Source of the DNA: Desulfovibrio desulfuricans
GTDB taxonomy: Bacteria; Desulfobacterota; Desulfovibrionia; Desulfovibrionales; Desulfovibrionaceae
DNA: 64,000 nt
Direction of reading: 5' to 3'
NCBI RefSeq assembly: GCF_004801255.1
Contig: NZ_CP036295.1
Coordinates: 1,053,001 to 1,117,000, forward strand
In this document: in pieces, positions 15,676 through 30,290 of the stretch
How the letters are laid out: each line of letters opens with the position of its first letter
Numbering within the stretch: the first letter of the stretch is position 1
The notes under the pieces: model-generated
Database searches by the model: none
Told to the model about the DNA's origin: nothing
The model's input: only the letters and a program-made list of their open reading frames with translations
Position numbers and translations under genes: made by a program

Positions 15676-18240
15676 CTAATGATATTCGCCATTAAGAAAT
15701 TTGGTGGCGTAGGCCTGTACAGCGGCGTCGTCCACCATAAGCATATCCATCTGGCGGGTCATTATCAGGAGTCGTCCCAATTGATCCAGGCGCGCGCACA
15801 GCTCATGCCTTGGATATTTTTGGTAACGTGCCCGCAGTCTATCACCCGTTATCTCCACGGTAAAGCCCAGCTCCTTGAGGATAAGCCCGATGCAGTGCAC
15901 GCGCCGTACGCGCTGGGCGTTTGCCGCCGCGCCCCCGGCAAATTCAAAGCGTATGTAGTTTTTGCTCAGGGTCTCGCCGCACCAGCAGTCAAGGATGGCG
16001 TAGTGGTAGCCCACACGGGACGAGAAATTGAGGTAGCGGTCGGAGACAATGGCATAGCTGCGCTGACCAAAACGCGAGCAGCCCTCCTGGTTGCCGCCGA
16101 TGGCTGTTTGCCCCATTACGGAAAGGAACCCGCGCATGTTTACCGGCCTTGGCCCACGGGCCTGCACGGCGGGGTTGAGCATGCCGTCGAGCACGCACTT
16201 GAGCGGCGCGCTCAACACGTCGCCGGGCGTAACCTGACGCGACTCGGGGTTGCGCAGTCCGCCGCCGAGGTCGATGACATAAAGATCGAGCGGTACGGTG
16301 CACGCCAGTTTGCTGGCAACCCCTGCGCAGTGGTCTGTCACCCGGTCGGATATCTGGAACATCTGCGTGTAGCTCAGCTCGTGCACATAGCGCATGATGT
16401 CGTGCAGCGAGGTGCAGTGGCGGGGGGTAAACGTTTCGGCGCGCGGATCCACAAGGTGCAGCGGCAAAATGTAGGGCGCTATGCGGCGCAAAAGCACCAG
16501 CGCCGGGCTGCTGGCTTTGGTCTGGGGCCGTACCAGGCGCAGGGGCAGCAACTCCTGTACCTCGCCGTCAAAAACCCTGCCCGACAGCGCATCCACGGTA
16601 ACCACCTGCCCGTCGGCCAGAATGCTGGTTGCGCCCGGCAGATTCATGATGGTGGGCACGCCGAATTCGCGGCAGATAGACGCCATGTGTCCTGTGAGGC
16701 TGCCTGTTTCAGCTATGATGGCCGAGGCCCTGCGCATGGCCGCCATGGCGTTGGGCGACGAGTGGGCCAGCAGCATGACAGCGCCCTCGGGAAAGTGCGT
16801 CATGTCTTCACTCTCGCCCACATGCACAACGGGGCCGCAGCCCACGCCTCGCGCGGCCACATCGCCGCCTGAGATCAGGGGCCGCAGATGGCGCAGCGCC
16901 GGGGCGGAATGCTCTTCAGAGGCATTGTCCAGCCCCATGGGGCGGGTCTGCAGCAGCACGATCTGGTCGTCCTCGTCCACGGCCCATTCCATATCCTGCG
17001 GGTACTGATAGTGCCGTTCGAGCTCCATGACCATTTCGGCCAGTTTGCGCACCTGGTCGTCGCTGAGGCAGGGCACGTCGCGCAGGGCGTCGGGCACAGG
17101 CTCAAGCCGGTTGTCCACAAGGCCGCTCTTGGCGCGCACAAGGCGCAGGCGCATGGTTTTGTGGGCAATGGTGGCCATGGTGATTTTTTTTGTGGCGCGC
17201 GAGACAAGCCACTGGTCGGGAGTGCCCGATCCGTCCACCACCATTTCGCCCAGACCCCACAAACCGTTGATGACCGTGGCGTTGGAGCGCAGATCAACGG
17301 GGTGGCGCGAAAAGGCCACGCCTGCCGCCTTGGCCCGGACCATCTCAACGCAGCACAGGCCCATGCCCGTGGCGTCCAGGTCATATCCGTGTTCGGCGCG
17401 GTAGGCCAGCGCGCGTGGCGAAAACAGACTGGCAACGACCTTTTTAAAGGCGGGCAGCAGCTCCTGACGGGTGACGCCCAGGATGCTGCGGTACTGGCCC
17501 GCAAAAGACTGCACCCCGTCTTCGGCAATGGCGCTCGAGCGCAGGGCCACCACCACGTCCGCATCTTTGCCAAAGGCTGCGTCCCACTCTGCGGACAGGG
17601 CCCGCTCTACCTCTGCGGGGATGGGGGCCGCCAGCACCAGATTTTCTACCTGCTGCGAGATGTCGGCAATAAGCGAGGGCTTTTCGGGGTCAATGCATTT
17701 GAGCAGCGAGAAGAGGCTTTTGAACAACCCCGGCGTGCGCAGCAAAAAGAAGCTGCCTGCCCGGATGGTGATGGCAAAGCCGCGCGGCACAGGCATGGAC
17801 AGCATATTGCGCAGCTCGCCCAGGTTGGCGTTTTTGCCGCCGACGCTGTAGGCCATGCTGGCGTCGACCTCTGAAAGCGGCAGGGTATACTGCGGCACGT
17901 CGCCGCGGGCAAGCTGATCGAGCTCGTGCTCGATACGCGAGGCAATGGAATGTACGGCGCTGCCAAGCGATATGTCGCACTGACCTGACATTTCGCTCAA
18001 GGTGGAGGCCATGCGCTCGCAGTGAACGATGGCCCTGCGGGCCTGCTTGCGCACTTCGCTGGTTTCCATGTGCCTGTCGCCGCGCAGGGTGGCGTCCAGC
18101 CCGGCCATTACTCCGGCAAGATCCGCATTGGCCTGCAGCAGATCCTTGAATGAGGCATAACGTTTGTTAAAGGTTTCCATCGCCGCTTCGCGGCTGACGC
18201 GCGGGGCAATGCCAAACAGTTTTTTGAGCAGTGATGCCAT
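15676..18240 (-). CDS. PEP-synthase-like protein: ATP-grasp and phospho-His domains with an unknown C-terminal domain
   Basis: 854 residues. Residues 125-440 resemble the ATP-binding (PPDK_N) domain of PEP synthase: KNANLGELRNM, VALRSSAIAEDG with SFAGQY, GLGEMVV and QTRPMG. Residues 455-562 resemble the swivelling phosphohistidine domain, with the candidate catalytic His518 in GSLTGHMAS (the PEP synthase motif is usually GG-T-H-A). The PEP/pyruvate-binding TIM barrel expected next is missing; residues 570-854 are instead an unrelated domain I do not recognise (IDLGGGLRNPES, YAIVSDRYLNFSSRVGYH). Residues 1-120 are helical. It may be a phosphotransferase acting on another substrate. SD AAGGATG precedes the ATG. 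Confidence 0.8.
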   Translation of the reverse strand: MASLLKKLFGIAPRVSREAAMETFNKRYASFKDLLQANADLAGVMAGLDATLRGDRHMETSEVRKQARRAIVHCERMASTLSEMSGQCDISLGSAVHSIASRIEHELDQLARGDVPQYTLPLSEVDASMAYSVGGKNANLGELRNMLSMPVPRGFAITIRAGSFFLLRTPGLFKSLFSLLKCIDPEKPSLIADISQQVENLVLAAPIPAEVERALSAEWDAAFGKDADVVVALRSSAIAEDGVQSFAGQYRSILGVTRQELLPAFKKVVASLFSPRALAYRAEHGYDLDATGMGLCCVEMVRAKAAGVAFSRHPVDLRSNATVINGLWGLGEMVVDGSGTPDQWLVSRATKKITMATIAHKTMRLRLVRAKSGLVDNRLEPVPDALRDVPCLSDDQVRKLAEMVMELERHYQYPQDMEWAVDEDDQIVLLQTRPMGLDNASEEHSAPALRHLRPLISGGDVAARGVGCGPVVHVGESEDMTHFPEGAVMLLAHSSPNAMAAMRRASAIIAETGSLTGHMASICREFGVPTIMNLPGATSILADGQVVTVDALSGRVFDGEVQELLPLRLVRPQTKASSPALVLLRRIAPYILPLHLVDPRAETFTPRHCTSLHDIMRYVHELSYTQMFQISDRVTDHCAGVASKLACTVPLDLYVIDLGGGLRNPESRQVTPGDVLSAPLKCVLDGMLNPAVQARGPRPVNMRGFLSVMGQTAIGGNQEGCSRFGQRSYAIVSDRYLNFSSRVGYHYAILDCWCGETLSKNYIRFEFAGGAAANAQRVRRVHCIGLILKELGFTVEITGDRLRARYQKYPRHELCARLDQLGRLLIMTRQMDMLMVDDAAVQAYATKFLNGEYH

Positions 18241-18383: not shown

Positions 18384-21080
18384 CTAGCGCCCCTTGCCAA
18401 TGACCACGTAGCGTTGCGCCGGGCCTCGTCCCTCCTTGCGTACAAGCCCCTGCTGCACCAGTAGCTGCAGGTCGTACTGGGCGGTACGCATGGAAATATC
18501 CTTGCCCGCCAGCATCTGGTATTCCTGACGGCTAACACTGCCTGCGGCGGCAATGGCTGGCCATGCGTTCATGATGCGCCGGTTGAGCTTTTCCGCCGCT
18601 GCATGCCCGTTCAGCGATTCGTCCGGCTGCGCGGACGCGCCGGATTGCCGCGGGGCGTCTTGGCTTTGCCCCGGCAGGCTCCGGGCCTCCGCCAGCGGTT
18701 GCTCCGGCGCTGCAAGATTGCCCGTCAGCCCGTCGGGGTTGGCGGCATCTTCGGCGGGGGCGGCGGAGCAGAACCCCTGATCGCACGGGGCATCCTGCAA
18801 ATTGCGCGATTCCTGCCCTGCAGCAGAGGGCGTTTCGCTTTGCGGAGCCTCGTTCTGACTTTGAACTGCGTGACCCAGCTGTATATCTTCTGCAAAAAGA
18901 ATGCCGCCTTCGCAAAACGTCAGCGCCCGCGTAAGGGTGTTCTTGAGCTCGCGTACGTTGCCGGGCCAGTCGTATTCCATCAGTTTGGACATGGCCCCTT
19001 TGCTGATCTGGGGCAAGGTCGGGGGAACAGCGGCGGCGGTGGCTCCTGCCTCCGCCTTCAGCCGTGCTTTGGCCGCGAGCGCTTCTGACAGAAAATATAC
19101 GGTAAGTGAAGGGATGTCCGACTTGCGGTCGCGCAACGGCGGGGTATTGATGGTGATAACCGCCAGCCGGTAATACAGGTCTTCGCGGAACGAGCCTTTT
19201 TGCGAATCATCGATCAGCGAGGCGTTGGTGGCGGCGATGATGCGCGTATCAAACGGAACGTCTTCATCGCTGCCAAGAGGCCGGATGCGGCGGGTGGAAA
19301 GCGCCCGCAGCAGGGCCTGCTGCACCTTGGGGGCCGCATTGCCCACCTCGTCCAGCATAAGCGTGCCGCCCTGCGCGGTGAGAAAGGCCCCCTTGCGCGG
19401 TGCTCGGGCCTCGGTAAACGCGCCCTTAACATGGCCAAAAAGCGTATCCATGAGCAGGTTTTCGTCCAGCGCGCCGCAATTGATGGTGATGAACGGCCCG
19501 GCGCCCCTGGCGCTGAGCCGGTGTATGGCCTCCGACACCAGTTCCTTGCCTGTGCCGGTTTCGCCCACGACCAGCACGTCGGCCAGCACCTGCGAGGCTT
19601 TGCGCACGTTGTCGCACAGGGCAAGCATGGCTGGCGACGTGCCGATAAGCCCGTTGGTGGGCAGATCTTCAGGGTGGGGCAGGTCTGGCGCGGGTTCACG
19701 TTGCGCAAGGGCGTCGTCCTCCGCTGCCCGCAGGCGCCGCAACTCGGAGGAATGGTGCAACCGCTCCAGCAGGGAATTGATGCCGAGCTTGAGGCGCTCC
19801 AGCTCGCGAGGCAGTTGCGGCAGGTCAAGACTGGTATTGTCCCCTATGGAGTTGCGGCGTTCCAGCTCTTCCGTAACGGCGTTGAGCGAGCGCCCTGTCT
19901 GGCGCGCAAGCCACCACAGGCTCAGACCAAGCAACAACAAACCGCCCGCAAATGCGCTGGAATATATGCCCATAAGCTGCAAGCCCGTGCGCGTGCTGGT
20001 AAAGCTGGTGTCCAGCACCGCCAGACCGCCCAATACCTCCCGATCGCCCTCGGCCATGGGCCGGAAGGTGATGGGCGCGTAGCTTACGCGCTCAACACGC
20101 ATCTGGTTGTTGCTCCACAACGTCTGCTGCTGGTAGAGGGGCAGCTGCCCTGAGCGGCCCTCGTGCACGTCCGACACCATATCCCAGTAATTTACGTAGT
20201 CCGGAGCCGGGCGAAACGCCGTGGCAAAGCCGGGTCTGCCAAAGTCGCCAGTAAACCCGGCCCGCACGACGTCGGTGCCCAGGCTTTTTTGCAGCAGGTT
20301 TGCATCGGGTATTTCGGACTGAAAGAGCATCCAGCCGTAGCGGTCAAAAAACAGCGTGTGTATGCGGTCGGTTGGGGTCGTGGTGGCAATGGGGGCCTCG
20401 GGGGCGGAGTATTCTGAAATGATGTCGCGCAGCTCCCTCAGATCGAGCGACAGCATCAGGTGGCCAATAAAGCGGCCTGCATCATCATATACGGGCGTGG
20501 TGAAGCGCAGCACCTGCAGGGTGATGCTGCGCGTGCCGCCGTTGACGGGAACCATGGGGTACGTCGTTTCCAGCGGCTGCGCCAGGCTTACATAGCCCAG
20601 ACGCATGTCGCCCGAGCCGGTGTGGAATGGGCTGGATGCGCTGGCCAGCGCCTGCTGCATGGGCACGTTGACCACTTCATTGCCTGTGTTGATCAGCAGG
20701 TAGCGGCTTTCCGGCACGGGGCTTTCAAAGGCGACTTCTCGATAACGTACGCCCTCCGCCCGTGCCCTGTATCTGAGCCGGTTGAGCATGTCTTCCTGGT
20801 TCATGGAACCAGCCGCGAGTATCAGCAGCTCGTTGCGCGTTTCTTCCAGGATTTTCTCAAGCGCAAGGCACATGGCTTGTGATTGGAGTTGCGCATTGCG
20901 TGCAATTGCACGATCGAGAATGGACTCGATATTGCTGCCGGTGACGGCAAAAATAATCAGCAATACCAGCGCCAGAAGCGGCAGGCCAAGCATGAGCATG
21001 CGGCTTGCCAGGCTGCGGTTCATAAAGAACGCAGCGAATTCCAGCGAGTTGCCCTGGGGAAGTGTTCTGTATAAACGCAT
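18384..21080 (-). CDS. Membrane-bound sigma-54-dependent activator with periplasmic sensor and winged-helix C-terminus
   Basis: 898 residues. Membrane segment 1 (about 28-47), a periplasmic Cache-like sensor region (about 50-360), membrane segment 2 (about 368-390), a HAMP-like linker, then an AAA+ domain with Walker A GETGTGKE, Walker B GGTLMLDEVG and the arginine-finger region. The sigma-54 contact loop reads GAFTEA where GAFTGA is normal. The usual Fis-like helix-turn-helix is absent; the last 65 residues look like a winged helix (SVSRQEYQMLAG, TAQYDLQLLVQQGLVRKEGRGP). A Ser/Pro/Gln-rich linker (about 735-830) precedes it. GGGGAG before ATG 21080 sets the start. The divergent neighbour has a -24/-12 promoter, its likely target. 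Confidence 0.88.
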   Translation of the reverse strand: MRLYRTLPQGNSLEFAAFFMNRSLASRMLMLGLPLLALVLLIIFAVTGSNIESILDRAIARNAQLQSQAMCLALEKILEETRNELLILAAGSMNQEDMLNRLRYRARAEGVRYREVAFESPVPESRYLLINTGNEVVNVPMQQALASASSPFHTGSGDMRLGYVSLAQPLETTYPMVPVNGGTRSITLQVLRFTTPVYDDAGRFIGHLMLSLDLRELRDIISEYSAPEAPIATTTPTDRIHTLFFDRYGWMLFQSEIPDANLLQKSLGTDVVRAGFTGDFGRPGFATAFRPAPDYVNYWDMVSDVHEGRSGQLPLYQQQTLWSNNQMRVERVSYAPITFRPMAEGDREVLGGLAVLDTSFTSTRTGLQLMGIYSSAFAGGLLLLGLSLWWLARQTGRSLNAVTEELERRNSIGDNTSLDLPQLPRELERLKLGINSLLERLHHSSELRRLRAAEDDALAQREPAPDLPHPEDLPTNGLIGTSPAMLALCDNVRKASQVLADVLVVGETGTGKELVSEAIHRLSARGAGPFITINCGALDENLLMDTLFGHVKGAFTEARAPRKGAFLTAQGGTLMLDEVGNAAPKVQQALLRALSTRRIRPLGSDEDVPFDTRIIAATNASLIDDSQKGSFREDLYYRLAVITINTPPLRDRKSDIPSLTVYFLSEALAAKARLKAEAGATAAAVPPTLPQISKGAMSKLMEYDWPGNVRELKNTLTRALTFCEGGILFAEDIQLGHAVQSQNEAPQSETPSAAGQESRNLQDAPCDQGFCSAAPAEDAANPDGLTGNLAAPEQPLAEARSLPGQSQDAPRQSGASAQPDESLNGHAAAEKLNRRIMNAWPAIAAAGSVSRQEYQMLAGKDISMRTAQYDLQLLVQQGLVRKEGRGPAQRYVVIGKGR

Positions 21081-21093
21081 AGTGCTCCCCTAT

Positions 21094-21111
21094 TTGCGCA
21101 AAAAAGCGCAA
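21094..21111. promoter_or_regulatory. Candidate upstream activator site of the sigma-54 promoter
   Basis: TTGCGC-AAAAAA-GCGCAA is a perfect inverted repeat, about 100 bp upstream of the -24/-12 promoter, which is the usual distance of enhancer sites. A related half-site (CGCGCAAAAA) lies near 21160. Binding by the divergent activator is inference. Confidence 0.45.
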
Positions 21112-21206
21112 TCTTGAGGACGAGTATAAAAAACAATGCCGGTTGAGACAAGAATTTTCGCGCAAAAATGGCAGATATTCCGCAATTACCGGCAAAAATT
21201 ATGCAA

Positions 21207-21222
21207 TGGCACGAGCATTGCT
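21207..21222 (+). promoter_or_regulatory. Sigma-54 (-24/-12) promoter of the TauE cluster
   Basis: TGGCACGAGCATTGCT matches the consensus TGGCACG-N4-TTGC(A/T) at every position. The transcript would start near 21234, about 105 bases before the first gene at 21340. A sigma-54 activator is encoded divergently. Confidence 0.88.
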
Positions 21223-21339
21223 ACTAATTTCACATTCGAGGCAACGAGGCGATGCCCAAGCCGTCTGGCTGGGGTCGCAAGTGGATGAAAGGCAAGTTGC
21301 GGAAGCAGTGGGAAGTCAAATCTTGACGTGGAGGATGTT

Positions 21340-21642
21340 ATGAAAAAGATGCAGAGGCTCTGGACATGGCTTGTCGGGTGCGCGCTAATGATTGCGGCCT
21401 TGCCATGTGTTGCGCTTGCAGCGGGCGGCAAGGCAGCCAACGTGGTTGTTGTGGCCGATACGCGCAAGCTTGACGGCATATTGTATTGGTGGGCTGAGAT
21501 GTATAATGAAAGTCATTTCTTTTTTGCCATTCTGACCATGGCCATCATTCCGGTTACAGGCTGCATATTGGGTTGGCTGGCAGATATCGTCATGACGCAC
21601 ATGGGCATCGACCTCAGGCACCGCGAAATCTCCGAGAAGTAG
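21340..21642 (+). CDS. Small membrane protein at the head of the TauE cluster
   Basis: 100 residues. A signal peptide-like segment (about 8-28, ending ALAAGG) is followed by one membrane segment (about 60-82, FFFAILTMAIIPVTGCILGW). The aromatic stretch LYWWAEMYNESHFFF lies on the outer side. I do not recognise a family. GGAGG five bases before ATG 21340 fixes the start; a GTG at 21328 is less likely. It is the first gene after the sigma-54 promoter and ends 16 bases before the TauE-like gene. Confidence 0.8.
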   Translation: MKKMQRLWTWLVGCALMIAALPCVALAAGGKAANVVVVADTRKLDGILYWWAEMYNESHFFFAILTMAIIPVTGCILGWLADIVMTHMGIDLRHREISEK

Positions 21643-21658
21643 TCGGAAGGAGGCAAGT

Positions 21659-22723
21659 ATGGACTGGATGTATCTTTTGATGCCCATCTCCGGCGTTTAC
21701 ATTTTCTGGCCGGGCCTTGTCATTCTCGGCTTGGGCGTGGGCATTATCGGTGGTTTTTTTGGTATGGGCGGCGCTTGGATGGTCACCCCCGGTCTGAACA
21801 TCCTCGGTTTCCCCATGGCCTTTGCCATTGGCACCGACGTGGCGCAGATGGCGGGTAAATCGCTTATCTCCACCATGCGGCATGGCAAGTTTGGCAACGT
21901 GGACTACGGCTTGGGCCTGACCATGCTGGTCGGCACCATCGTGGGCGTGGAAATTGGCGCGCAGATGGTTATGTGGCTTGAACGCCTCGGCTCGGTCGAC
22001 AAGGTCGTGCGCTGGCTGTACGTTGTTCTGCTCGTGTTGCTGGCCTGGCTTGTATTTCACGACATCGCCGCGCGCCGCAGAAAGGAACGTGAAGCCAAGG
22101 CGCAGCACCGTGAGCTTGACAGCACGGCCACCGGCGTTGACTGGGCCACCCGCCTGCACGCCATCAAGATCCCGCCTGTCGTCCATTTTACGCATGCCAA
22201 CATCACCTGCTCCGCGTGGCTGCCCATCATCGTCAGCTTCTTCACCGGCTGGCTGGCTGGCATCCTCGGCATCGGCGGCGGTCTTATCCGCATGCCCGCC
22301 CTGGTGTATCTTGTGGGCTGCCCCACCCATCTGGCGGTGGGTACGGACCTCTTTGAAGTCGCCATCTCCGGCCTCTACGGCGCGGCTTCGTACGCATACA
22401 AGGGCCGCGTGGAACTGCTTGCCGCCCTCGTCATGCTGTGCGGCGCAGCCGTCGGCGCGCAGATCGGCGTTGTGGCCACCAAGTATGTAAAGGGTTACGG
22501 TATCCGCTTTGTGTTCGGTCTGGCCGTTGTGGGCTGTCTTATTTCGGTTCTGTGCAAGCTGCTCCAAGCTGAATTCCCGGCATGGGGCTGGCTGCTCGGA
22601 CCGGCTGCTACCGTTGACGTGCTCGGTTTTGTGACGGCTATCTCCCTTTACATAACCGTCAAGATGGTGCAGGGCGCCAAGGCGGAAATTGCCGCCAAGA
22701 AGAACCAGCCCGCGGCCAACTAA
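21659..22723 (+). CDS. TauE/SafE-family sulfite/organosulfonate exporter-like permease
   Basis: 354 residues, about 8-9 membrane segments. The TauE/SafE pattern is clear as two related halves: GVGIIGGFFGMGGAWMVTPGLN (about residues 22-44) and GWLAGILGIGGGLIRMPALVYLVG (about 198-220), each followed by a conserved P..AIGTD / LAVGTD motif. The family is associated with export of sulfite or sulfoacetate and related anions; the substrate is not fixed here. A hydrophilic loop (about 125-175) separates the halves. AGGAGG precedes the ATG. Second gene of a sigma-54-controlled cluster. Confidence 0.88.
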   Translation: MDWMYLLMPISGVYIFWPGLVILGLGVGIIGGFFGMGGAWMVTPGLNILGFPMAFAIGTDVAQMAGKSLISTMRHGKFGNVDYGLGLTMLVGTIVGVEIGAQMVMWLERLGSVDKVVRWLYVVLLVLLAWLVFHDIAARRRKEREAKAQHRELDSTATGVDWATRLHAIKIPPVVHFTHANITCSAWLPIIVSFFTGWLAGILGIGGGLIRMPALVYLVGCPTHLAVGTDLFEVAISGLYGAASYAYKGRVELLAALVMLCGAAVGAQIGVVATKYVKGYGIRFVFGLAVVGCLISVLCKLLQAEFPAWGWLLGPAATVDVLGFVTAISLYITVKMVQGAKAEIAAKKNQPAAN

Positions 22724-22736
22724 GAGGAGGCACGCC

Positions 22737-23333
22737 ATGAAAATTCGTAACCTAATGCTTATGCTGGCGATGGCCTTCTCGGTCGCAATGCTCACCGGCT
22801 GCAACTTTGACGGGGGCGTGGAACAGGGCCGCTGCGTGGCCTATGACGCCAACGCCCAAACCCTCACCATCGTGGTGGACGTGACGCACGACCAGTTTAA
22901 CCCGCACTACAGCGGCGGCACGCATACCTTCAAGCTGCCTGTGGAATCCAAGGACATGGGGCCGGTACCCGCCGTCGGCGGCCGCCTGATGATCGACACC
23001 GCCAAGAACACCGTGCTGGTGTATGACCAAAAGACCAGCAGCGTGCGTGAAGTGTCCGTGCAGTTTACCGATGTGGAAAAGAACGTGGGCTCCGACCATC
23101 CCAAGGTCAAGGGCAAGACCTTCCCCGTCATCGACAAGGAACAGCAGACCGTGACCGTGTACTCTGGCCGCCAGAAGTCGCTGCTCACTTTCAAGATTCC
23201 TGCCGACGCACAAGACCTGCCCGCGTATGTGTGGACTGCTGGCGACGAAATGCGCATCGCCTTCAGAAATGCTGAAAAGACTCAGGCCATACGCGTCATG
23301 AACGTGACCAAGACCAACATCTTCAAGAAGTAA
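22737..23333 (+). CDS. Putative lipoprotein of the TauE cluster
   Basis: 198 residues. A type II signal peptide with lipobox LTGC (Cys22) predicts a lipid-anchored periplasmic protein. The mature part is beta-rich with repeated phrases (AYDANAQTLTIVVD, VIDKEQQTVTVYSG). I do not recognise a function; similar proteins seem confined to Desulfovibrio-like bacteria. GAGGAGG before ATG 22737 sets the start, 13 bases after the TauE-like gene. It may bind or sense the transported anion, but that is guesswork from context. Confidence 0.82.
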   Translation: MKIRNLMLMLAMAFSVAMLTGCNFDGGVEQGRCVAYDANAQTLTIVVDVTHDQFNPHYSGGTHTFKLPVESKDMGPVPAVGGRLMIDTAKNTVLVYDQKTSSVREVSVQFTDVEKNVGSDHPKVKGKTFPVIDKEQQTVTVYSGRQKSLLTFKIPADAQDLPAYVWTAGDEMRIAFRNAEKTQAIRVMNVTKTNIFKK

Positions 23334-23360
23334 ACCCCAGGGTGACTACCCCCACCCTGC

Positions 23361-23391
23361 GCGCCGGAGCGGTTCTGCTCCGCTCCGGCGC
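23361..23391 (+). terminator. Strong hairpin inside the TauE cluster
   Basis: GCGCCGGAGCGG (23361) pairs perfectly with CCGCTCCGGCGC (23380), loop 7 bases, with no T-run. It lies between gene 3 and gene 4 of the cluster and may cut transcription partly or protect the upstream mRNA. Confidence 0.6.
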
Positions 23392-23430
23392 ACCCTTGAA
23401 CGGAGTGGGGCAAGCACCCAGGAGAACGCT

Positions 23431-23742
23431 ATGAACAGCTACCGTCAGACCCTTTATTCAGGCATAATCCGCGTGGCTGCCAACGCCATCATGGTGGCAG
23501 CCGTTTTCGTGGGCATGTATCAGTCTGCCCGCAGTGCCGGGGCCTCGGAACTGGTGTTTTGCGCATGGTTTTTTGGCATTACCGTGCCCGCATGGGCGGG
23601 CGCCTTCTGGCTTACCCGGCTGGTGCGCCGCAAGTACCCCGCCGAATTTCAGAGCCTTGTGGAATTGCCCAGGCTTGGGCAGCGGCTGGTGAGCTGGCAT
23701 GTGGGCGATGCCGCCGCAAACCTTGCTTTGGTGCGCAGATAG
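23431..23742 (+). CDS. Small two-segment membrane protein of the TauE cluster
   Basis: 103 residues with two predicted membrane segments (about 12-32 and 40-62) and a basic, cytoplasmic C-terminal half (RLVRRKYPAEFQSL). I recognise no family. AGGAGAACGCT precedes the ATG. It follows a strong hairpin by 40 bases and is followed closely by the next membrane-protein gene, so genes 4 and 5 may form a sub-unit of the operon with lower expression. Confidence 0.75.
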   Translation: MNSYRQTLYSGIIRVAANAIMVAAVFVGMYQSARSAGASELVFCAWFFGITVPAWAGAFWLTRLVRRKYPAEFQSLVELPRLGQRLVSWHVGDAAANLALVRR

Positions 23743-23800
23743 CGGGGGCAACAGCATGTCGTGCACTTTGACCATACCACAGGCAGGCAGGAAGGAACCC

Positions 23801-24697
23801 ATGGGGGAACTAATCGATTCCAGGGGTTGGCAGGTATGCAGGCAGATACGTTACCGCCAGCGGTATTGGGGCGTGCTCTGCGCCGTGCTGCTGGGGTTTG
23901 TCATGCTGGGCATGCTTGACGGGCTGCAGGGGCTGGTGCGGTCTGGCGCGGACGTTATCGAGGTGCTGCCCGGCGGCAGCGTGCCCATATCTGGCCCGTT
24001 GACTATCAAAAACCCCGTCAACAGCGACCTCAACGCGCAGTTTACCCCAGCAAATCCTTCGCTTGTCTATGATCTGGAAGGTTTCTTTGCCGGCTACTGG
24101 TTTGGCAACGGCATGTGGCGCGCGCATGTGCGCGCAGCTGGCGTGGTTGAACCCGGCAGCTACAGTCTCAAGGTCACCTTCAGGGGCGCGCCCGCAAGCA
24201 CCACGCAAAACTATAAAATTACGGTGTATGCTGACGACGCCGCCATGCGTGCGGCCTCAACCTCGTATTTGCGGCGTATTACAGGCTACAACCCCTTTGT
24301 GCTGGCCGCTGGCTGCGGCGGGCTGGCCCTGCTGGTCGGGGTGATGGTGTACAGGCTGGGCTGCCGCTACATACGGCAGCTCACAAGCCTGGGCTGCGGC
24401 GAAATTGTGCGCGTGCAGCCAGATAAGACCAATGCTTCGCAGGCGCGGCCCGGCCAGGTTTTGTGCCTGCTCTATGGGCTGCGCGCCCCAGCGGCTGGCG
24501 CACTGTGCGCGGTGTACGACGCCCAGGGGATGCACATTGGTCATGCCCGCGCGGTGGCGGCCAACAAGGGCACGCTTGAGCTGAATTTTGATTCGTTTTC
24601 TTCCCCGGCGGCGGATGCCGGTGTAACGCATGACGCCGTCCGTCCTGGCTGCCTTGTCCAATTGCGGCCCCCAAAGCCGCTCTCTCCTCCGGACTAG
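23801..24697 (+). CDS. Membrane protein with large periplasmic domain, end of the TauE cluster
   Basis: 298 residues. Membrane segment 1 (about residues 20-42), a periplasmic domain of about 110 residues (ISGPLTIKNPVNSDLNAQF; SYSLKVTFRGAPAS), membrane segment 2 (about 160-183), then a cytoplasmic domain of about 110 residues with a beta-barrel look (GEIVRVQPDKTNASQ). No family is recognised. AGGAAGGA before ATG 23801 supports this start; the frame is open from ATG 23756. It is the last gene before a terminator. Confidence 0.72.
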   Translation: MGELIDSRGWQVCRQIRYRQRYWGVLCAVLLGFVMLGMLDGLQGLVRSGADVIEVLPGGSVPISGPLTIKNPVNSDLNAQFTPANPSLVYDLEGFFAGYWFGNGMWRAHVRAAGVVEPGSYSLKVTFRGAPASTTQNYKITVYADDAAMRAASTSYLRRITGYNPFVLAAGCGGLALLVGVMVYRLGCRYIRQLTSLGCGEIVRVQPDKTNASQARPGQVLCLLYGLRAPAAGALCAVYDAQGMHIGHARAVAANKGTLELNFDSFSSPAADAGVTHDAVRPGCLVQLRPPKPLSPPD

Positions 24698-24720
24698 GCA
24701 GGCTGGCCGAACGGTCATCC

Positions 24721-24764
24721 AGCGGCATGCACTTGGCGCGTCACCTGTGCATGCCGCTTTTTTT
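24721..24764 (+). terminator. Intrinsic terminator of the TauE cluster
   Basis: AGCGGCATGCAC (24721) pairs perfectly with GTGCATGCCGCT (24747), followed by seven T. Confidence 0.85.
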
Positions 24765-24872
24765 GCGCCCATGGCCTCCATCCCGCCTTGCCGCTCTTGC
24801 CGCCCGCTTTGGCATAAGCTATGCTTATTCCGTTGCATATGCCCCTGACGGGCTCAAACCAAGGCGGATTTC

Positions 24873-27410: not shown

Positions 27411-28901
27411 ATGTTCAGAAAAAAGCAGCGCAACGAGGCCTGCATCCGTCAGTGCGAGGATGTCTGCGCTCAAACAGTAGAAGCGGAAAGCGCCCTGCCA
27501 AGCTACGCCCGGACGCTTTCGTGGCTCTCGCTGGTGGTCATTTTGCTGACCAGCCTGGGGCTTTCGTTCTTTATTTCCAATTCTGCCCGCGAGACGCTGC
27601 TCACCCGGCAGGAGAACTTTGCCCAGCAGCTGGTGGAAAATCTCAACAGCCAGATTTTCCGGCGGTTTGCCCTGCCTACGCTGCTGGGGTATGGCCGCAT
27701 TGCCCTGCGCCAGCCCGAGCAGTACGACAGGCTTGATCAGGTGGTGCAGTCCGTCATCCACGGTTTGCCGGTGGAGCGGCTGCGCATCTATGATTTTTCG
27801 CGTCTGGTGGCCTATTCGACCAACAAGGAAGACCTTGGCCGCGCCGGGCTTTCGCCGCCGTATCTCGACGAAATACTGCAGGGCGGTGCGCCCCGGTCCG
27901 AGATCATTTCGTCCATGCCGGTCTGGCAGGCTCCCTTTCGCGTGCCCCTGCAGGAAGGCTCCTTTGTGTTGCGCGTGCTTTATCCCCTGCGCGGCGAACC
28001 CCTGCATCCGGGCGAAGAACCCCCGATCATGGGCGCGCTGGAGCTTACCCAGGACATTACCGGCGACTATGAACAGGTGCTGACCTTTCAGGGCATCATT
28101 GTGGTCATGTGTCTGCTTTCGTCGGTGGTGATGTTCGGCCTGTTGCTCATGCTCATTCACAGGTCCGAGCGGGTACTGGCCGCGCGTATGTACAAAAACC
28201 GCATTCTCGAAAACCAGCTGCACAGCAACGAGCGGCTGGTGAGCATGGGCCGGGTGGTGGCCAGCATCGCCCACGAGATACGCAACCCGCTGGGCATTAT
28301 CCGGTCAAGCGCGGAGCTGCTGCAGCGCCGTACGGACAAGGCCGACGCAAGCACCCGGCGTATTCTCGGGGCCATTTACGACGAGGCCGTGCGCCTGTCG
28401 CAAACAGTAAATGATTTTTTGGACTACGCCCGGCCTCGCCAGCCCAAGCAGGATGTGGTAGACCTTAATCTGGTGCTTGATCAGGTGCTGGCCTTTCTTG
28501 AAGGAGAGATGGGGCGTTGCGGCGTTGCGCTTGAGCGGCAGTGCGAGGAAGGACTTTTTTCGTCCGGCGACAAGGATTTGCTGTATCGGGCATTTTACAA
28601 TATTCTTGTCAACGGCCAGCAGGCGATGGAAGGACCGGGCATCATGCGTATTACAGGACGCAATGACGACGGTGGCAGCGTTTGCATTGAATTTCTCGAT
28701 TCCGGCCCCGGCTTTGACCCCACCACGCTGCCCAACCTGCTGGACCCATTTTTTACGACCAAGGATGGCGGCACAGGGCTAGGTTTGCCCATTGTGCAGT
28801 CGATCATCTCAAGCCATGGCGGCACTATTCAGCTTGAAAACGGCCCCAATGGCGGGGCGCTGGTAAGGGTTCTGCTGCCCAGAGCTCCAGCTGGCGCATA
28901 G
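27411..28901 (+). CDS. Membrane sensor histidine kinase, NtrB/AtoS-like
   Basis: 496 residues. Membrane segments at about 36-56 and 228-249 enclose a 170-residue periplasmic sensor. A short HAMP-like stretch leads to the H-box SIAHEIRNPLG (His288), followed by the N-box (YNILVNGQQAME), G1 (DSGPGF) and G2 (GGTGLGLPIV). It phosphorylates the response regulator encoded 9 bases downstream. The signal is not known. A Shine-Dalgarno sequence is not obvious before ATG 27411. Confidence 0.92.
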   Translation: MFRKKQRNEACIRQCEDVCAQTVEAESALPSYARTLSWLSLVVILLTSLGLSFFISNSARETLLTRQENFAQQLVENLNSQIFRRFALPTLLGYGRIALRQPEQYDRLDQVVQSVIHGLPVERLRIYDFSRLVAYSTNKEDLGRAGLSPPYLDEILQGGAPRSEIISSMPVWQAPFRVPLQEGSFVLRVLYPLRGEPLHPGEEPPIMGALELTQDITGDYEQVLTFQGIIVVMCLLSSVVMFGLLLMLIHRSERVLAARMYKNRILENQLHSNERLVSMGRVVASIAHEIRNPLGIIRSSAELLQRRTDKADASTRRILGAIYDEAVRLSQTVNDFLDYARPRQPKQDVVDLNLVLDQVLAFLEGEMGRCGVALERQCEEGLFSSGDKDLLYRAFYNILVNGQQAMEGPGIMRITGRNDDGGSVCIEFLDSGPGFDPTTLPNLLDPFFTTKDGGTGLGLPIVQSIISSHGGTIQLENGPNGGALVRVLLPRAPAGA

Positions 28902-28910
28902 GAATACATA

Positions 28911-30290
28911 ATGAGTGAGAAAGCGCATCTTCTGGTTGTTGACGACGAAAAAAACTATCTGCTGGTATTGCAGACCCTGCTCGAAGACGAGGGGTATGTT
29001 GTTACTGCCATCAGTGACCCTGAAACCGCGCTCGCTTTTCTGGATGAAAGCGAAGTGGACGTCATTGTGACAGACATGAAAATGCCCAAGGTCACAGGGC
29101 GCGAGGTGCTTGAAAGGGTCAAGAAAAACTGGCCATATATCCCCGTGCTGATAATGACGGCCTTTGGCTCCATTGAAAGCGCCGTTAAAGTCATGAAGTA
29201 CGGCGCGTTTGATTACATCACCAAGCCGTTTTCCAACGACGAGCTGCTGCTCTCGATCCACAATGCCGTGGAGCTGTCGCGGGCCCACCGTCAGTACAGG
29301 CTGCTGCAAGAGGTCATGGAAGACCGCTACGGCGTGCACAAAATCGTGGGCCGCAGCAAGGCCATACGTGACGTGCTGCTCATGGTCCAGCGCGCTGCTC
29401 CCAGCCGCTCAACAGTGCTGATCACAGGCGAATCAGGCACCGGCAAAGAGCTGGTGGCCCGTGCCATCCACTATACAAGCCCCCGCAAAGACAAACCCTT
29501 TGTGTCGGTCAACTGCATGGCGCTGAACCCCGGCGTGCTTGAGAGCGAGCTTTTTGGTCACGAAAAGGGGTCGTTTACCGGTGCTGTGGCCATGCGACGC
29601 GGCCGGTTTGAACAGGCCGACGGCGGTACGCTGTTTTTGGATGAGATAGCCGAGCTTACGCCTGATCTGCAAGTCAAGCTGCTGCGTGTGCTGCAGGAAA
29701 GGCGTTTTGAACGCGTTGGCGGCGGCGAAGAAATTGAGGTGGACATCCGCGTTGTGGCGGCCACCAACAAAGACCTTGCCGCCCTGGTTGAGAAGGGCGT
29801 GTTTCGCGACGACCTCTATTATCGCCTCAACGTGGTGCAGGTTCCCCTGCCGCCCCTGCGCGAACGGCGCGAAGACATTCCCCTGCTGGTGGCGCATTTT
29901 GTGGAAAAGGTCTGCACCGATAACTCCATGCCGCCCAAAACCTTCAGCACCGAAGCGTTGAACTACCTTACGGGCTATGAGTGGCCGGGCAACATCCGCC
30001 AGCTTGAAAACGTGGTGGAGAGTTGCCTTGTGCTCGTCCCCAGCACCGTCATCGACGTGGATAATCTGCCTGCGGAAATCCGCGATGAAGAGTCGCAGTT
30101 TAAAAGCGCCGTTGACCTGCTGCCCGTGCAGCTTGATCTGGCTGACACGCTGGAAAAAATAGAGGCCGCACTCATCAGGCGGGCCCTCGTGCGGGCAGAG
30201 CTTGTGCAGGTTAAGGCTGCGGAATACCTTGGTATTTCAAAAAGTTTGCTGCAGTACAAACTCAAAAAATATGGCATAACAGGGCATTAA
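28911..30290 (+). CDS. NtrC-family sigma-54 response regulator
   Basis: 459 residues. Receiver (1-120) with phospho-acceptor Asp55 in VTDMKMP and Lys in ITKPFS; AAA+ domain with Walker A GESGTGKE, sigma-54 loop GSFTGA, Walker [10 protein letters not shown]; Fis-like helix-turn-helix at the C-terminus ([24 protein letters not shown]). All key residues are present. It follows its kinase gene by 9 bases. Target genes cannot be read from the sequence; no -24/-12 promoter was noticed next to it. Confidence 0.94.

Follow-up and report, generated by a model that had tools for sequence, protein, structure and literature searches.

A predicted membrane-anchored sigma-54 activator facing a TauE transport operon in Desulfovibrio desulfuricans

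Within a 64-kb window of Desulfovibrio desulfuricans (the whole stretch of DNA analysed here; all coordinates are window positions), two genes start back to back at 21080 on the minus strand and at 21340 on the plus strand, and the 259-bp region between them raises the question of whether a transport operon has a sigma-54 switch of its own, what that switch senses and what the operon moves. The minus-strand gene (18384..21080) encodes an 898-residue orthologue of DVU0151 which, judged from its domains (PF00158) and its structure model, is a membrane-anchored sigma-54 activator, while the plus strand carries five genes that include a TauE/SafE permease. We consider it probable that the activator senses a ligand from the membrane and serves a single operon, one for anion transport in sulfite reducers. 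The basic circuit has already been published as a prediction: a DVU0150-family protein scoring over its cut-off, a divergent activator and a -24/-12 promoter are all present, and the locus is an orthologue of the DVU0151 regulon (DVU0150-DVU0146) of D. vulgaris Hildenborough, predicted by Kazakov et al. 2015 (PMC4641369). To this known circuit our analysis adds the identity of the sensor, a dedicated pair of upstream sites, a loss test, a phylum-wide link to sigma-54 with fused or split sensors, and an association with dsrA.

The promoter, its upstream sites and their conservation

The -24/-12 element TGGCACGAGCATTGCT (21207..21222, plus strand) is the sole zero-mismatch match to TGGCACGNNNNTTGCW in the window, and an earlier note on this DNA had likewise described a perfect promoter in a divergent region of 260 bp; the activator start at 21080 gives just that spacing. 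From the promoter spacing, transcription is predicted to start at about 21233. The whole genome holds five exact matches, and 46 sites when up to one mismatch is allowed, versus 23 for a reversed control pattern. The inverted repeat that the same note had seen upstream of the promoter, TTGCGC-N6-GCGCAA (21094..21111, about 105 nucleotides upstream of the -24 element), is also there; it contains the first copy of a motif that related loci have conserved and that is present twice here. These activator-site-like repeats, both on the minus strand, score 16.5 bits (21092..21103) and 17.7 bits (21156..21167), and lie about 109 and 45 nucleotides, respectively, upstream of the -24 element. Of the 46 near-consensus -24/-12 sites, only this promoter has more than one copy scoring 11 bits or higher within 160 nucleotides, and the activator therefore looks dedicated to the TauE operon; three of the other near-consensus sites carry one copy of the motif, TTTTGCGCGAW.

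It might be argued that the -24/-12 site and the repeats arose by chance, and the pattern with two mismatches allowed is indeed no commoner in the window than in shuffled sequence. We find this explanation hardly credible in view of the uniqueness of the exact match, the conservation of its position across the order, and the absence of the site near the operon in four of the five loci of the genus that have no activator.

The DVU0150-family model NF040783 finds a match in 109 of the 247 genomes of the order, and 110 of its 114 places were compared. The gene order, running from a phosphoenolpyruvate (PEP)-synthase-like gene and the activator across the divergent region to the genes for the DVU0150-family protein, TauE, DUF4881, a small membrane protein and a membrane protein, recurs with local losses. 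An activator homologue occurs in 103 of the 110 distinct loci, in one of which (L139) it is not adjacent. The earlier note had proposed looking for the promoter in related genomes, and it proves conserved: a -24/-12 site of at least 12.5 of 15 is found in 104 of 106 activator-bearing rows (101 of 103 distinct ones, three being duplicates), a score that 54 of 355 shuffled regions reach, and a score of at least 14 is found in 51 of 71 nonredundant regions versus 3 of 355 shuffled ones. It was a motif search on these 71 upstream regions that returned TTTTGCGCGAW, with at least one site in 69 of the 71 versus about 21 of 71 after shuffling, an enrichment that is supportive, not independent, since these very regions had served to derive the motif. 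Most site centres fall 30-135 nucleotides upstream of the -24 element.

The genus offers a test by loss. Of its 42 operon-bearing genomes, 37 have the activator, each with the promoter at most 214 nucleotides from the operon start region. The other five all carry rpoN, and show only AAA+ paralogues among the matches listed; the promoter is found near the operon in one of them, and in three no site within 750 nucleotides reaches 12.5. With kinship ignored, the chance of at most one in five activator-less loci keeping the promoter is 4.5e-5. The conservation of promoter and activator sites, together with promoter loss in four of these five genomes, supports the sigma-54 control of the operon that had been proposed.

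Three observations concern the cassette itself. Five genomes (G005, G080, G121, G148 and G211) hold two DVU0150-family copies, some without an adjoining DUF4881 gene, as a paralogous second cassette. In some genera of the family (L047, L052, L063, L072 and similar loci) about 500 nucleotides separate the -24/-12 site from the DVU0150-family frame downstream of it, leaving a long leader. Finally, genomes of the same genus of only 1.4-1.6 Mb (G111, G125 and G158) retain the operon, G111 without the activator.

The membrane activator and the operon it faces

The core of the activator is an AAA+ sigma-54-interaction domain with its lid (18840..19649, minus strand, as are all its parts; PF00158 and PF25601), the match to PF00158 (Sigma54_activat) reaching E=1.9e-57 and 194 bits over a cut-off of 20.2. 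The start at 21080 is preceded by a Shine-Dalgarno-like AGGGGAG, while the alternative start at 21023 has none (by eye); residue numbers here count from 21023, and 19 is added for numbering from 21080. A first membrane helix spans residues 9-27 (hydropathy, cut 1.6) and a second lies near residues 351-369. Between the two, the structure model places a long N-terminal helix followed by two PAS-like modules, the arrangement of a periplasmic double-Cache (dCache) sensor domain (19989..20942), which structural matches also indicate; the PF02743 (Cache) match is partial. After the second helix comes a HAMP-like linker (19755..19913; PF00672 positions 1-52 of 53, E=0.019). The AAA+ domain contains a GAFTEA loop (19407..19424), whose fifth residue, at the position of the second glycine of GAFTGA, is glutamate in 67 of 72 aligned activators. 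At the C-terminus, a winged-helix-like DNA-binding segment (18423..18509) is suggested by PF08461 (E=0.0078) and PF12840 (E=0.0094), and a search of the last 80 residues at E 10 found no Fis helix-turn-helix, a domain common in this class and not required. On the structure model, the sensing region previously called possibly 'unknown' is a periplasmic dCache domain and the protein a membrane-anchored sigma-54 activator, which supports the membrane-bound activator with a periplasmic signal that the earlier note had put forward.

All five genes listed in that note are present downstream of the divergent region, on the plus strand. The first (21340..21642) encodes a DVU0150-family membrane protein of 100 residues with two hydrophobic stretches by hydropathy (NF040783, 133 bits versus a cut-off of 70). 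It is followed by the TauE/SafE (TSUP) permease (21659..22723; PF01925, E=9.6e-44, 150 bits, cut-off 32.6) and by a DUF4881 protein with a lipoprotein-like signal peptide, judged by eye (22737..23333; PF16222, E=1.6e-74), whose structure model has a predicted local distance difference test score (pLDDT) of 89.9. The last two are a small membrane protein of 103 residues (23431..23742; hydropathy, with a Pfam match below threshold only) and a further membrane protein by hydropathy (about 23801..24697, or 313 residues from the alternative start at 23756), for which a Pfam search gave no family. An intrinsic terminator with a 12-bp stem followed by T7 (24721..24766, plus strand; 24700-24775 folds at -35.1 kcal/mol) closes the operon; its loop exceeded the length limit of the terminator scan.

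We propose that this single divergent transport operon is controlled by a one-component activator in the inner membrane. The dCache domain would bind a small ligand in the periplasm, and the second membrane helix, followed by the HAMP-like linker, would relay the signal to the AAA+ domain. The protein may be held on the two upstream sites by its C-terminal winged helix, while ATP hydrolysis and the GAF[T/S]EA loop would remodel sigma-54 polymerase at 21207-21222. The operon's five products (the small membrane protein, the permease, the DUF4881 lipoprotein and another two proteins of the envelope) would most likely assemble into a single complex for carrying an anion across the inner membrane of sulfite- or sulfate-respiring bacteria; the cargo would probably be either a sulfur oxyanion or a small anion of organic or organosulfur type.

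Two further features lie in and beyond the operon. A strong GC-rich hairpin without a T run (23361..23391, plus strand; 23338-23405 folds at -41.2 kcal/mol) stands between genes 3 and 4, that is between the DUF4881 gene and the 103-residue gene, and could lower or stabilise the expression of the two genes behind it. At 27411-30290, about 3-6 kb further downstream than the operon, a sensor-kinase-like gene is followed by an NtrC-type response-regulator-like gene (by eye, with an AAA+ match), a second sigma-54 regulator.

The TauE clade across the phylum and its possible cargo

Proteins of the same TauE clade, at 59-76% identity, occur in many families of the phylum and in 72 of 395 phylum genomes. 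A strong dsrA is found in 67 of these 72 genomes versus 120 of the 323 others (Fisher 1e-19, not corrected for kinship), and four of the five TauE-clade genomes without one are incomplete (62-80% complete). Outside the order, a -24/-12 score of at least 13.5 is reached at 18 of 33 TauE loci versus 3 of 165 shuffles. Nine of these 33 loci have a homologue of the membrane activator and nine have other sigma-54 regulators; receiver-domain genes occur at 24, kinase-cluster genes at 22, members of a dCache-PAS-kinase cluster at 5 and PEP-synthase-like genes at 21. Pfam searches on ten example proteins agree with the cluster labels (receiver domains, dCache histidine kinases, a universal stress protein and receiver-AAA+-Fis regulators). 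At one locus outside the order (L192:2310-6138) and at one activator-less locus in another family of the order (L108:1075-6542), a dCache-PAS kinase adjoins a receiver-AAA+-Fis regulator by Pfam, a split sensor/regulator pair upstream of the TauE cassette. In the examples tested, the dCache/sigma-54 input logic thus recurs at loci with a different regulator. Judging from gene position, we infer that the TauE cassette is served by dCache sensing and a sigma-54 AAA+ output in both settings, within a single membrane protein at some loci and shared between two proteins at others.

With receiver-domain, kinase or dCache-PAS-kinase cluster members at 27 of the 33 outside-order loci, and a universal-stress-type protein at 8 (cluster identities resting on the ten examples), one could see in the cassette an envelope-stress or signalling module, the TauE-like protein being a sensor partner and not a carrier. 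We regard this as very unlikely, given that TauE is the most conserved part of the locus over the full permease domain (in the order outside the genus, median identity 70% versus 28-52% for the other parts).

The dsrA association bears on the cargo. The earlier note had proposed export of, or defence against, a sulfur anion, and the link to such an anion stands as a correlation, the TauE clade tracking dsrA, while a sulfite-like cargo is not supported and neither the exporter nor the defence role is supported by any result here. A role of the permease as an exporter for sulfite overflow or defence would agree with the same dsrA association and with the sulfite exporter proposed for Cupriavidus TauE (Weinitschke 2007, as cited in a passage of PMC3949148). 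Nevertheless, that passage also gives a proposal of sulfite import for an Archaeoglobus TauE homologue, PMC5840216 calls predictions of TSUP function not feasible, and the sensor points into the periplasm, while a cell would more likely detect the overflow of an internal intermediate on the inside; we judge this explanation unlikely. Since the sensor is periplasmic, uptake or periplasmic handling is at least as likely as export, and such sensing would suit a ligand from outside no less than the overflow of an internal intermediate.

The gene downstream of the activator on the same strand points elsewhere. It is the usual neighbour of the activator gene in the compared loci, with second copies downstream in some, and encodes a PEP-synthase-like phosphotransferase (15676..18240, minus strand) with an ATP-grasp and a swivelling-His domain (PF01326, PF00391). 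Its His518, which we take to be the catalytic residue, is kept in 87 of 87 aligned rows, the window included. The circuit could be right and the cargo be a carbon anion, for instance a carboxylate linked to pyruvate or PEP metabolism: the neighbour with its conserved histidine is kept beside the activator and at the 21 outside-order TauE loci, and the ligands of related dCache structures in the PDB include amino acids, lactate, choline and polyamines, or compounds like them. On the other hand, a PEP/pyruvate-binding barrel gave no Pfam match (whole protein, E 0.1; last 294 residues, E 10), which leaves an action of this neighbour on pyruvate conjectural; the C-terminal 290 or so residues have no accepted Pfam match, and TauE tracks dsrA. 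We regard a carbon anion as a possibility, if a somewhat unlikely one; as far as sequence can indicate, the dsrA link favours a sulfur anion and the PEP-synthase-like neighbour leaves room for a carbon anion.

We return to a membrane activator dedicated to one anion-transport operon. The architecture, promoter, sites, synteny, coupling by loss and dsrA association come from sequence or models, on which this reading rests, and several points weigh against it. In the activator, the second helix is weaker (peak mean 1.59, under the 1.6 cut), and the HAMP, dCache and winged-helix matches all fall below Pfam cut-offs (gathering scores); in the operon, the DUF4881 model gave no Foldseek match at E 0.001. 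Two loci of the order (L127 and L130) have the activator and no site at 12.5. Among the activator-less genomes of the genus, G204 has kept promoter and sites near the operon, and G239 has a site that reaches 12.5 at 605 nucleotides; if G239 is counted as a keeper, the test weakens from 4.5e-5 to 9e-4 (kinship ignored). Outside the order, 15 of the 33 TauE loci have no site of 13.5. Among the phylum genomes, the clade is absent from 120 of 187 that are dsrA-positive, and G049 has TauE without dsrA in a genome listed as 100% complete. A bolder version, in which an activator fixed in the inner membrane, with the enhancer brought to the membrane, fuses the logic of the dCache kinase and sigma-54 response regulator of its relatives and controls a strongly conserved TauE clade acting as a so far unrecognised sulfur-oxyanion carrier of dissimilatory sulfite reducers across the Desulfobacterota, seems to us quite unlikely.

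Comparison with known systems

The closest known system is the DVU0151 regulon, after whose DVU0150 the family NF040783 is named. Passages of PMC4641369 describe DVU0151 as a single-component activator with GAFSEA, a variant counted among those that would keep activation, encoded divergently from an operon called 'transmembrane transport'; its long N-terminal region is said to hold possible 'unknown sensing domains', and a winged helix replaces the Fis helix-turn-helix. The single-component activator, the divergent sigma-54 promoter and the winged helix are common to both loci, whereas membrane anchoring, dCache, TauE, a loss series and a dsrA link are not mentioned in those passages. In the literature searched, the locus tags DVU0145-DVU0152 had no further mention beyond that paper.

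For the permease, the relevant passages of Marietou et al. 2018 (PMC5840216) describe TSUP permeases as abundant in sulfate reducers and as candidate sulfate carriers, with nine in D. vulgaris, where none of three SulP candidates was essential for sulfate transport; they name DVU2958 (clade B) and do not single out the orthologue of the window TauE. The movement of sulfur oxyanions in sulfate reducers is unsettled. The TauE operon, conserved, linked to dsrA and equipped with a dedicated switch, offers a clearly delimited target for genetics.

The PEP-synthase-like neighbour shares the ATP-grasp and swivelling-His domains with the PEP synthase / pyruvate phosphate dikinase family, but differs from it in that no PEP/pyruvate barrel was found.

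The activator shares with NorR-type control the AAA+ domain and the sigma-54 loop. In NorR (Bush et al. 2010, PMC2941729), the variant with G266D at the second glycine of GAFTGA still activates and is free of the sensor's repression. Unlike wild-type NorR, 67 of the 72 aligned activators carry glutamate at this position, and their control is therefore probably exerted through a route other than NorR-type repression at the loop.

Most Clostridiales activator sensor domains lack transmembrane regions, according to a passage of PMC6615313, and the D. desulfuricans protein lends itself to asking whether a sigma-54 AAA+ ring is able to work while held at the membrane. Its nearest counterparts in input and output are the pairs of dCache kinase and sigma-54 response regulator at L108 and L192, where the same TauE cassette adjoins a periplasmic dCache input and an AAA+ output acting through sigma-54. 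Those pairs consist of two proteins, presumably joined by phosphotransfer and ending in a Fis helix-turn-helix, whereas the D. desulfuricans activator is one membrane protein.

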